From assembly GCA_949300615.1 (NCBI GenBank), contig CASGEW010000014.1:1-38704 (forward strand): a stretch of DNA of 38,704 bases, in the 5' to 3' direction. The notes under the pieces were generated by a model, which was not told where the DNA came from, ran no database searches, and saw only the letters and a list, made by a program, of their open reading frames with translations. This document shows, in pieces, positions 9,290 through 12,535 of the stretch. Within the stretch, counting starts at the first letter, position 1. Each line of letters begins with the position of its first letter. This stretch comes from an uncultured Bacteroidales bacterium. GTDB taxonomy: Bacteria > Bacteroidota > Bacteroidia > Bacteroidales > CHK158-818. The translations under genes were made by a program, and so were the position numbers.

Positions 9290-10951
9290 ATGAAAAAGAT
9301 GCTATCTTTGTTATTGCTGTTCTCACTGGGAATAGGCATAACAAATGCTACCGACATTCAAAAAGTGAAACCCGTCAAGAATGTCATCCTGCTTATTCCG
9401 GACGGAACATCGTTACAAACCGTTTCATTGGCACGCTGGTGTCAATGGTACAAAAATCCGGACAAACCGCACCTGAATATCGACCCTTACATCTGCGGAA
9501 CCGTCCGTTCATTCTGTTCAAACGGCCCCGTAGGCGACTCAGCTCCCACCACCTCCTGTTACATGACGGGATATCCCAGCATTGCGGGATTTGTCTCTAC
9601 GCACCCATACAGTGCCGGAAATGACGATATCTACCCGGTCGATCCCGACAAGGCGTTTCAACCGCTGGCAACCGTTTTGGAAGCATCCCGCATTTTAAAG
9701 GAAAAAGCCACCGGATTAGTTTTCGTTTGCGAATTTCCCCATGCTACTCCGGCCGACTGTGCATCGCATAGCTATAAAAGAGGCCGTTACAACCACATTG
9801 CCCCTCAAATGGTACACAATAATGTAGATGTTGTATTGGGCGGAGGAACTTCTTACTTAAACGAGGAGTGCGAAAATTACTTGAAAAACAGCGGATACGG
9901 CGTTTTCAAAAATGACCTGAAAGGATTCCGCTCATACGAAGGCAATAAAATGTGGGCCTTGTTCGGAGACGGAGAAATGGAATACGACCTTGACAGAAAC
10001 CCCGAAGAACAACCCTCCTTGGCCGAAATGACAACAAAAGCCATCGAAAAGCTCTCTAAAAATGAAAACGGATTTTTCTTGATGGTAGAAGGCAGCTTAG
10101 TGGACCATGCCGCCCACGGGAACGACCCGGTAGGACTATTTTCAGATTTTCTGGCATTCGACAAGGCGTGCGGTGTAGCATTGGATTTTGCCAAACAAAA
10201 CGGTGAAACGGCTGTTATCATCGTCCCCGACCACGGCACAGGAGCCCCTTCCATTACCGGAGGCAGCAGCTATTCCAAAACCCGATTATTCAGAACGCTG
10301 AGCGGATTCAAACGTACGGCAGCAGGCCTGGCAAAAATAGTAAACAGCCGTCCGGCCGAAGATCTTCCTGAAATCTTCAAAGAATATGGAGGCATCCGGT
10401 TAACCGATAAAGAAATTGACGCTTTCTACAACTGTAAGGGATACGACAAAAGCCCCATACCCAAAGATGAACGAAAAGACAAAAAAGAAGAAAATGTTCT
10501 ATACAATAATTCTTTAACCGGACTAATTTCGGATATTATATCCGCACGTACGACCATTCGCTTCTCAACCAGCGGGCATACGGGTGAAGAACTTTTTTTG
10601 GCGGCTTATCACCCGAAAGAAAACCTGCAATTAGGGATGCTTGACAACATTGAGATCAATCACCTATTGTGCAATCTGTTAGGATTCAGTGGAGAACTCG
10701 ACAACTTAACCTCTTCTCTGTTTGCCAAACATTATGACGTATTCAAGGGGATGGATTATGAAATCGTCCCGGCAGAAGAAAACGGAAATCCCTCCTTGAT
10801 CGTAAACGGGAAAAAGAAAATAGAAATAGAACCCTTTACCAATATCATTAAAGTGGACGGAAAAGAGGAGCAATTAAATTCCGTAGTCGTATATGTAGAT
10901 CGCACCAATACGTTCTATTTACCCCAATCGCTGGCAGAATTAGCTCAATAA
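9290..10951 (+). CDS. periplasmic alkaline phosphatase (PF00245 family)
   Basis: A 553-residue exported phosphomonoesterase. A signal peptide covers residues about 1-20. The active site is intact: D38 in LIPDGTS as metal ligand, D83-S84 in GDSAPTTS with S84 as the nucleophile that forms the phosphoserine, D272 and H276 in DHAAHGND, D314-H315 in PDHG, and H430 in SGHTGEE. These are the two-zinc ligands of the family. It is somewhat longer than the E. coli enzyme; the extra C-terminal segment (about residues 500-553) is not assigned. It lies 18 nt after xseB and is the last gene of the mnmA operon, followed by a strong terminator. No Pho-box-like site was seen. Confidence 0.92.
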   Translation: MKKMLSLLLLFSLGIGITNATDIQKVKPVKNVILLIPDGTSLQTVSLARWCQWYKNPDKPHLNIDPYICGTVRSFCSNGPVGDSAPTTSCYMTGYPSIAGFVSTHPYSAGNDDIYPVDPDKAFQPLATVLEASRILKEKATGLVFVCEFPHATPADCASHSYKRGRYNHIAPQMVHNNVDVVLGGGTSYLNEECENYLKNSGYGVFKNDLKGFRSYEGNKMWALFGDGEMEYDLDRNPEEQPSLAEMTTKAIEKLSKNENGFFLMVEGSLVDHAAHGNDPVGLFSDFLAFDKACGVALDFAKQNGETAVIIVPDHGTGAPSITGGSSYSKTRLFRTLSGFKRTAAGLAKIVNSRPAEDLPEIFKEYGGIRLTDKEIDAFYNCKGYDKSPIPKDERKDKKEENVLYNNSLTGLISDIISARTTIRFSTSGHTGEELFLAAYHPKENLQLGMLDNIEINHLLCNLLGFSGELDNLTSSLFAKHYDVFKGMDYEIVPAEENGNPSLIVNGKKKIEIEPFTNIIKVDGKEEQLNSVVVYVDRTNTFYLPQSLAELAQ

Positions 10952-10972
10952 TCCCATCTTTACCATACTACA

Positions 10973-11006
10973 AAACAAAGCCCGGAGGTAATTCCGGGCT
11001 TTGTTT
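10973..11006 (+). terminator. strong terminator after the alkaline phosphatase gene
   Basis: A 14-bp perfect stem (10973-10986 with 10993-11006) around a 6-nt loop. It is GC-rich in the middle with A and T tails on each side, so it could stop transcripts from both directions. Confidence 0.85.
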
Positions 11007-11366
11007 GCTTCGTACCTTAAAATAAAAGATACTACCGCCAGAGCTATTGGGTTGAGAAAATAATAAGCAAAAAAGCATTTCGATATGATTTTACTCCTTA
11101 TGTTAACGAATTGAGCAACATAGTACCTTTTAACAAAAACAACCCTCATAATCCTCCTAACCAAAGAAAGATTATTCCAAAAGAGTTGCATTTCTATGGT
11201 GCAGAAAACGCCATGAAAAGCCATAATTTTTCTCGCAAACAAAGAGAACAATCCCATCGGCAAAAGACAAGATTATAATAATTTTCCTTTGAAATTTTCA
11301 GAAAAATTCACTATACTTGTACATCAAACAGAGAAATTCCCCCCTGTTCAAGACAGGTATAAATGC
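11007..11366. other. AT-rich region with open frames on both strands, no recognised gene
   Basis: Between 11022 and 11277 the plus strand is open for about 85 codons without an early start codon (its only ATG is at about 11211) and ends RQKTRL at 11275-11277. The minus strand carries a frame of 107 codons (10940-11263) that reads through the terminator at 10973-11006, which argues against it. Neither product resembles a family I know. It may be a decayed gene. A small hairpin (CCTGT/ACAGG) lies at 11343-11357. Confidence 0.4.
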
Positions 11367-11546
11367 AAAAAAGGCGTGGAACTGTGTATTAATATCTGAA
11401 ACTCGGGCATCGCCATAGCCGCAACAGATAGATAATAAACAACAGTCCACGCCTATATTTTATAGCAAAATATACGCTACATGACTTTCCGATTGCCTAT
11501 TATTTCCCTTCTGTTTTTACAAAAATTGGCGATTTCTGAGTTTCAA
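11367..11546 (-). ncRNA. candidate structured small RNA of about 180 nt, unassigned family
   Basis: The minus strand holds a promoter-like pair just upstream (11550-11581), then a chain of stems, then six Ts (11367-11372). In transcript order: a 5' segment TGAAACTC...TCGCCA (11545-11527), a perfect 8-bp AT hairpin (11454-11461 with 11467-11474), and an 81-nt hairpin (11373-11453). The last is built from GGCGTGGA/TCCACGCC with CTGT/ACAG, TATTA/TAATA and TATCTG/CAGATA, ending directly at the T-run like an intrinsic terminator. No open frame fits it. The 5' segment can also pair with the loop of the big hairpin. It does not look like tRNA, tmRNA or SRP RNA; a 6S-like role is possible by size only. 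A non-autonomous repeat element is the main alternative. Confidence 0.5.
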
Positions 11547-11549
11547 GGA

Positions 11550-11581
11550 ATAATATACAACACCTAAATATTTTGGGCAAA
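11550..11581 (-). promoter_or_regulatory. candidate promoter of the small RNA
   Basis: On the minus strand TTTG (11578-11581) is followed after exactly 20 nt by TATATTAT (11550-11557), a 4-of-6 match to TAnnTTTG. The predicted start, near 11543-11546, coincides with the first base-paired segment. Confidence 0.45.
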
Positions 11582-12028: not shown

Positions 12029-12535
12029 ATGAAATCGATTATCTATCGTTTGTTGAATTTACAAGGAAACAAAATGCAATGTGCACCGGTCCTTTACCCT
12101 TCAAACAAAAAAAAGAGCACATCAGGTGTCGCCAAACCAGGCCCGTTAGTAAACAAATCAAGGGACCGATCTTCCTCAAAAATAAAATTTCGACAACTTC
12201 TACCATATATTACCTGCCATCTATTGACTGCGGACATTCAAAAGAAAATATTTCTGGTGAATCACTCCGAAAAATATGGGGAGAAATATCTGGGGATCGA
12301 GCCTATCTCTATAACAAAAACGCCTTTTTATTCATTCCCCAAATCCTATTCGCTGCCACAGCTCCTTCGTGCCATCGAGATGCTTGAAGAGCCACAAAAA
12401 ACAATTGTTTGCCTTCATTTCTCAGGTTTCCGCAACGAAGAGATCGCCCGGCACGTTTCTCTATCACCCCAACTCATCAAAAAGGAGTTATCCTGCATAC
12501 TAAATAGATTGGATACAACCATACGCGACCTATAA
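12029..12535 (+). CDS. orphan protein with sigma region 4-like helix-turn-helix
   Basis: A 168-residue protein. Residues about 108-168 read as a sigma-70 region 4 / LuxR-type helix-turn-helix: LLRAIEMLEEPQKTIVCLHF, then GFRNEEIARHVSLS, then a recognition helix and a leucine-rich tail. The spacing matches the C-terminal DNA-binding domain of ECF sigma factors. The first 100 residues are basic and carry no recognisable region 2, so it should not work as a normal sigma factor. A second ATG at codon 16 is an alternative start. It may be a degenerate ECF factor, a regulator, or a remnant. It stands alone in an AT-rich island and is followed by a hairpin. No anti-sigma gene is adjacent. Confidence 0.6.
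   Translation: MKSIIYRLLNLQGNKMQCAPVLYPSNKKKSTSGVAKPGPLVNKSRDRSSSKIKFRQLLPYITCHLLTADIQKKIFLVNHSEKYGEKYLGIEPISITKTPFYSFPKSYSLPQLLRAIEMLEEPQKTIVCLHFSGFRNEEIARHVSLSPQLIKKELSCILNRLDTTIRDL

Follow-up and report, generated by a model that had tools for sequence, protein, structure and literature searches.

What kind of RNA is encoded on the minus strand of an AT-rich gap in the genome of an uncultured Bacteroidales bacterium, and does it act alone or on a gene? In the window, the whole 38,704-nt stretch of DNA analyzed here, a sequence-only reading had placed in this gap an independent gene for a new structured small RNA. The surroundings that it described are borne out: the gap separates a convergent alkaline phosphatase gene (9290-10951, plus strand), which has its own terminator-like hairpin at about 10979-11003, from the gene for a sigma-70 region-4 protein. 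The latter (12029-12535, plus strand) encodes 168 aa with only sigma-70 region 4 (Pfam Sigma70_r4_2, E 5e-6) and begins about 380 bases beyond the promoter of the RNA. The structured element itself, at 11546-11367 of the minus strand, has a minimum folding energy of -50.7 kcal/mol (z -3.8), which none of 200 shuffles equalled; the plus strand of the same stretch scores z -4.0, which reflects the element's build as a large inverted repeat. Just where the reading had it, an 81-nt hairpin (11453-11373, minus strand; -31.1 kcal/mol) runs into TTTTTT (11372-11367). Homology adds to folding energy, with a blastn match to a sister species at E 1e-6 and a covariance-model match at E 1.4e-18, the latter inflated since the window copy is one of the 26 training sequences and, like all E-values of this short-calibrated model, rough. 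The structure of the element is real and far from chance.

The start of the transcript has to be moved. The promoter first noted (TTTG, 20 nt, -7 box) has its -7 box within strand 1 of the RNA described below; we reject it because strand 1 covaries with strand 2, G-U changes included. Upstream on the same strand, a consensus TTTG at -33 (11648-11645) lies 19 nt ahead of the -7 element TATATTTG (11625-11618), with a predicted start at about 11610. Across the family of homologous copies, 103 of 127 members have the Bacteroides promoter motif TAnnTTTG between -110 and -25 relative to the core, as against 6 and 2 in control windows. With this upstream promoter the RNA would be about 245 nt long (about 11610 to 11367) and not the 180 nt at first supposed.

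Competing strands and kissing loops

The leader consists of four strands and two complementary loops, laid out as two halves; all positions below are on the minus strand. It opens with a 5' hairpin, P0 (AAAGAG...CTCTTT, 11610-11580), where many members have hairpins of unrelated sequence. The first half then runs from strand 1 (AAGCGUUU..UAUUAUC in the RNA; AGGTGTTGTATATTATTCC at 11565-11547) through the 5' strand of helix H1 (H1a, TGAAACTC, 11545-11538), the kissing hairpin KL1 (AGAAAT-CGCCA-ATTTTT, 11537-11521) and the 5' strand of H3 (H3a, AACAGA, 11515-11510) to strand 2 (11510-11479). After an AU-rich hairpin of variable length in the alignment (11477-11453), which would cap the arm formed by strands 2 and 3, the second half follows as strand 3 (GGCGTGGACTGTTGTTTATTATC, 11453-11431), the 3' strand of H3 (H3b, TCTGTT, 11428-11423), the kissing hairpin KL2 (GGC-TATGGCGAT-GCC, 11420-11406), the 3' strand of H1 (H1b, GAGTTTCA, 11404-11397) and strand 4 (CACAGTTCCACGCC, 11386-11373), the 3' half of the putative terminator hairpin, behind which stands the T-run (11372-11367). 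Strand 1 can pair with strand 2 or 4, strand 2 with 1 or 3, and strand 3 with 2 or 4. In the window copy, as folded, 3:4 is the strongest of these helices (-23.4 kcal/mol), followed by 2:3 (-15.0), 1:2 (-9.4) and 1:4 (-7.8).

An alignment-free test, in which pairing between strands of the same leader is compared with pairing across leaders, was applied to 59 leaders less than 80% identical. Self-pairing was marked for all three alternative helices (z -15.5 for 1:2, -13.0 for 2:3 and -12.9 for 3:4) and for H1 (-30), H3 (-31) and KL1:KL2 (-17), whereas wrong combinations gave nothing of the kind (1:3, +1.4; 2:4, -1.4; H1a:H3b, -0.4). The self-specificity of 1:4 was weak (z -3.7), with 95% of cells compatible with that pairing. 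The evidence on strands 1 and 4 is not an effect of model fitting, since both lie outside the covariance model. The helices compete for the same bases: of the strand-3 bases that pair in 3:4, 89% also pair in 2:3, and the corresponding share for strand 2 is 60%. Column-based counts agree for 1:2, 3:4, H1, H3, KL1, KL2 and the kissing pairs, and on the main measures none of 500 shuffles had pair counts as good; the exception is the part of 2:3 that adjoins H3, where pairing is poor (35-39%).

Compensatory changes are seen in every pair of H1 and in 11 of the 13 pairs of strand 4. The KL1 stem is paired in 87% of cells and the KL2 stem in 91%, the latter with compensatory changes from GGU/ACC to GGC/GCC across the family (GGC/GCC in the window). 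The loops pair with each other in 97% and change together, CGCCA/UGGCG being replaced by CUGGUA/UACCAG or CUGGACA/UGUCCAG. A simple model, a nested rod in which H2 is an ordinary helix, was given up in favor of kissing hairpins because the flanking stems covary. G-U cells outnumber A-C cells by 243 to 14, a count made on core columns aligned by the model, which leans somewhat toward standard pairs, and this excess points to selection on RNA of this strand. The compensatory stem changes that the sequence-only reading would have had us look for in homologs are present in these 59 non-redundant leaders.

Folded to their predicted minimum, the leaders form a single rod, in which 2:3 is present in 58 and 1:4 in 50 of the 59. 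The five nucleotides behind 3:4 have a T fraction of 0.75-0.92, and a run of at least five Ts follows in 43 of the 59; a few copies have a weak T-run. Conserved, mutually exclusive helices, one of them a terminator-like hairpin with a T-run, are the arrangement by which a transcription attenuator is recognized, and it is this arrangement that the sequences display.

A family of mRNA leaders

A covariance model built from 26 copies found the family in 118 of 393 Bacteroidales genomes and in 4 other genomes from across the phylum. Two or more matches were obtained in 64 of the 118. At most 7 candidates were scored per genome, and some of the extra matches are weak ones that mirror a strong copy on the opposite strand. 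The genome of the window has four copies, on contigs 14 (the window copy), 15, 43 and 51. When 60 related genomes were searched by blastn, one sister species proved to have several copies, two of them in tandem, and a degenerate pattern recovered dozens of true copies in named Bacteroidales, including Parabacteroides, Barnesiella, Dysgonomonas, Coprobacter, Bacteroides acidifaciens and Mediterranea. As the training copies had been found by an exact pattern, the invariance of CUGUUGUUUAUU and GGCGAURCC among them is in part a consequence of how they were chosen; copies that the model recovered later vary at both, with compensation. A pattern scan of viral contigs gave one unrelated match only. 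Tandem leader copies occur within 3 kb in one genome, at two loci of which one is a 3 kb contig; one copy there is without its 5' half, and a 137-aa ORF and a nucleotidyltransferase-like ORF follow.

The family is apparently large and undescribed. The sequence-only reading had recognized no known class, and it was right in this: at curated scores no Rfam 15 family matches the element in the window or at 25 other loci, and relaxed searches gave chance-level matches only on the element, Bacteroid-trp being matched in one of the tested loci at a place away from it. No description of the family was found in the part of the published literature that was searched. Term searches likewise did not find it in a B. 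thetaiotaomicron transcriptome paper (PMC7366714) and four structured-RNA surveys (PMC2864571, PMC8040213, PMC8632094 and PMC11109978). Bacteroidales-1 (RF01693), Bacteroides-1 (RF01694) and 6S-Flavo (RF01685) appear as structured RNAs of Bacteroidetes in Weinberg et al. (PMC2864571); the element matches none of them at any threshold tried. A 6S RNA was rejected, there being no match to Rfam 6S or 6S-Flavo; CRISPR, retron, ribozyme and toxin-antitoxin RNAs were also considered and dropped, with no such gene nearby.

What the family does is indicated by what follows it. About 100 loci were fetched with their flanks, the element was located in each, and ORFs were called simply. Of the 121 copies for which a gene could be called, 117 have their first downstream ORF on the same strand, and the commonest distance from the RNA core to the start codon is 70-90 nt. 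An ORF starts within 300 nt downstream in 118 of 127 copies, a count to which the window copy contributes one spurious-looking frame. The absence of a coding frame, on which the claim of an independent RNA gene had leaned, thus describes the window copy and fails for the family. A GenBank record of Parabacteroides distasonis has an annotated CDS 58 nt downstream of its copy, and some copies have the start codon at the T-run itself, only 20-40 nt past the core. By these same-strand genes at a short, regular distance, the family is one of cis-acting mRNA leaders. The sequence-only reading had taken many scattered copies with target-site duplications as the sign of a repeat element; the family is indeed multicopy, and its copies are leaders in front of genes.

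The downstream proteins are very varied, falling into 69 clusters. They include BspA-type LRR proteins (15 of 101), proteins with T9SS sorting domains (5), response regulators (4) and DnaQ-type exonucleases, whose genes, from a reading of the sequences, stand ahead of DUF262-like genes. Signal-peptide-like N-termini, by a crude rule, are found in 68 of 117 first ORFs as compared with 25 of 91 third ORFs. The cargo genes have no common pathway and suggest no ligand.

Three further groups of loci deserve mention. At five loci, in Dysgonomonas, Parabacteroides and a Candidatus Merdenecus bin, nearly identical leaders lie 3' of a relaxase-like gene and 5' of DnaQ-exonuclease/DUF262-like genes, likely as parts of a mobilizable element whose cargo is accessory and may serve in defence. 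In three genomes, several paralogous genes for BspA-type leucine-rich-repeat surface proteins each have their own leader. A subgroup at five other loci stands ahead of small conserved proteins (MIHIGxLIKxELxxQxRS...) that resemble DNA-binding helix-turn-helix proteins, with the start codon close to or at the T-run.

Orphan leaders and changing cargo

Why, then, did the window copy look like a gene of its own? It keeps the promoter, the 5' hairpin, the four strands, the loops and the T-run, followed by a P6-like hairpin region (11357-11336) whose GGGGAATT, on inspection, can pair with strand 4, and by a start codon at the expected distance (11324). That codon opens a frame of only 8 codons (MYKYSEFF, 11324-11298), and the cargo gene is missing. 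No homologue of the cargo proteins was found downstream of the copy, and searches of sister-genome DNA with the locus gave matches on the leader part only; a decayed gene in this place was rejected on both counts. We take as spurious a 105-aa frame further on (10943-11257), to which none of the cargo proteins is related and which extends into the terminator-like hairpin belonging to the convergent gene. We think it likely that the gene once behind the window copy was lost or swapped out, leaving an orphan leader, which would explain its free-standing look; what the locus yields is probably a terminated RNA of about 245 nt that controls no gene.

The route by which orphan leaders arise may be seen at another locus, where contig 43 and two sister genomes have in common the leader and, at 77-96% DNA identity, the gene upstream of it, and the sequences downstream are dissimilar. 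At an orthologous locus in three sister species the same upstream gene and leader are followed by unrelated sequence: a UbiA-type prenyltransferase gene (L103), no gene directly (L058) and a small lipoprotein-like gene (L015). Here the leader stays while the cargo changes.

Probable attenuation and its alternatives

We consider it likely that this cis-acting mRNA leader functions as an attenuator with two states, a proposal built on features legible in the sequences themselves: leader position, promoter, T-run, helices and their mutual exclusion. As 3:4 is followed by a U-rich stretch, the state with 1:2 and 3:4 looks like the terminated one and that with 2:3, together with 1:4, like read-through; that 3:4 terminates, that these two states are OFF and ON, respectively, and that the leader is regulated are inferences. 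RNA polymerase starting from the leader's own promoter would make the first half first, and this could close as hairpin 1:2. The second half, once made, could close as 3:4 with its T-run, leading to termination or blocked initiation (OFF). Alternatively, the complementary loops KL1 and KL2 would kiss, H1 and H3 would zip, and strand exchange would pair 2 with 3 and 1 with 4, giving a long rod from which the terminator hairpin has been removed (ON); the kissing loops would be a natural start for such an exchange. One could envision a race between loop zipping and the polymerase that sets downstream gene expression and that a ligand, an RNA-binding protein, temperature or polymerase speed might shift. 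Against an attenuator speaks the strong preference for the rod at equilibrium, so that 3:4 must win kinetically or through a bound factor.

The proposed switch inspires analogies with known systems. In trp-leader-type attenuators, such as Bacteroid-trp (RF01692) of the same phylum, 1:2 and 3:4 (the terminator) likewise compete with 2:3; in contrast, the present element has no recognized leader peptide, complementary kissing loops and helices lie between its strands, its cargo genes vary widely and no Rfam family matches it. Transcriptional riboswitches of the purine type also have kissing hairpins beside a closing helix and an expression platform with a T-run. Unlike them, the element has no obvious conserved unpaired pocket of the kind typical of a small-molecule aptamer, no known ligand and no pathway common to its cargo. 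The epsC/EAR (RF01735) and put antitermination RNAs resemble it as structured leaders between promoter and operon; these belong to other taxa, Rfam gives no match to them, and the element differs in having its own terminator-like hairpin.

Translational control is the main rival to attenuation because the start codons are so close: with some of them 20-40 nt after the core, control might be exerted there and not at termination. The U-rich stretch would then be no terminator, and the fold would set access to the start codon or the stability of the mRNA, for example through RNase III cutting of the rod. The stability of the long rod is in keeping with this reading, as is the tendency of the downstream hairpin to pair with strand 4, seen family-wide at z -4.9 and weaker than the other helices. 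However, a T fraction this high directly behind a strong hairpin, as seen in most copies, usually marks an intrinsic terminator, and we regard a translational leader as rather doubtful.

It is improbable that the element is an independent, trans-acting small RNA to which the downstream genes are incidental. The reading would account for the promoter, the compact fold and the T-run, for a terminated product of about 245 nt that would itself be stable, and for the absence of a gene behind the window copy and directly behind one sister-species copy. Yet a free-standing locus, as expected of such a gene, was found only for the window copy and a few others; the 117 same-strand ORFs at clustered spacing, mostly 70-90 nt, argue against it for the family, and a small RNA needs no conserved mutually exclusive helices. 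Quite improbable, too, is a processive antitermination RNA of the EAR or put type that modifies polymerase for long downstream genes. The position between a promoter and variable, sometimes very long, surface-protein genes would suit it, but many cargo genes are short (100-200 aa), and the RNA has its own terminator-like hairpin and competing helices. EAR and put need neither. Finally, a mobile palindromic DNA element, a MITE-like repeat inserting upstream of genes, would fit the multiple matches per genome, the large inverted-repeat design, the tandem copies and the copies on likely mobilizable elements, but is highly improbable given the 243:14 ratio indicating selection as RNA of one strand, the regular promoter and start-codon spacing, sequences that are diverse with compensatory change instead of recent identical copies, and leaders that stay at orthologous sites.

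To return to the attenuator, it is tempting to suggest, though tentatively, that these RNAs form a new class of regulated leaders, in which mirror-image half-hairpins with kissing loops would switch a terminator by strand exchange, and a portable unit would stay in place while surface-protein and accessory genes are swapped behind it; it is possibly the commonest undescribed class in Bacteroidales. Regulation by leader RNAs is little known in gut Bacteroidales, and the family is present in about a third of the genomes sampled, often in several copies, among them human gut commensals such as Parabacteroides distasonis. The competing helices offer precise mutants. If the switch is true, one RNA switch would govern a shared regulon of lipoproteins, BspA-type surface proteins, T9SS cargo, regulators and mobile-element genes, and its signal, once found, would name a physiological cue that these bacteria use for their surface.
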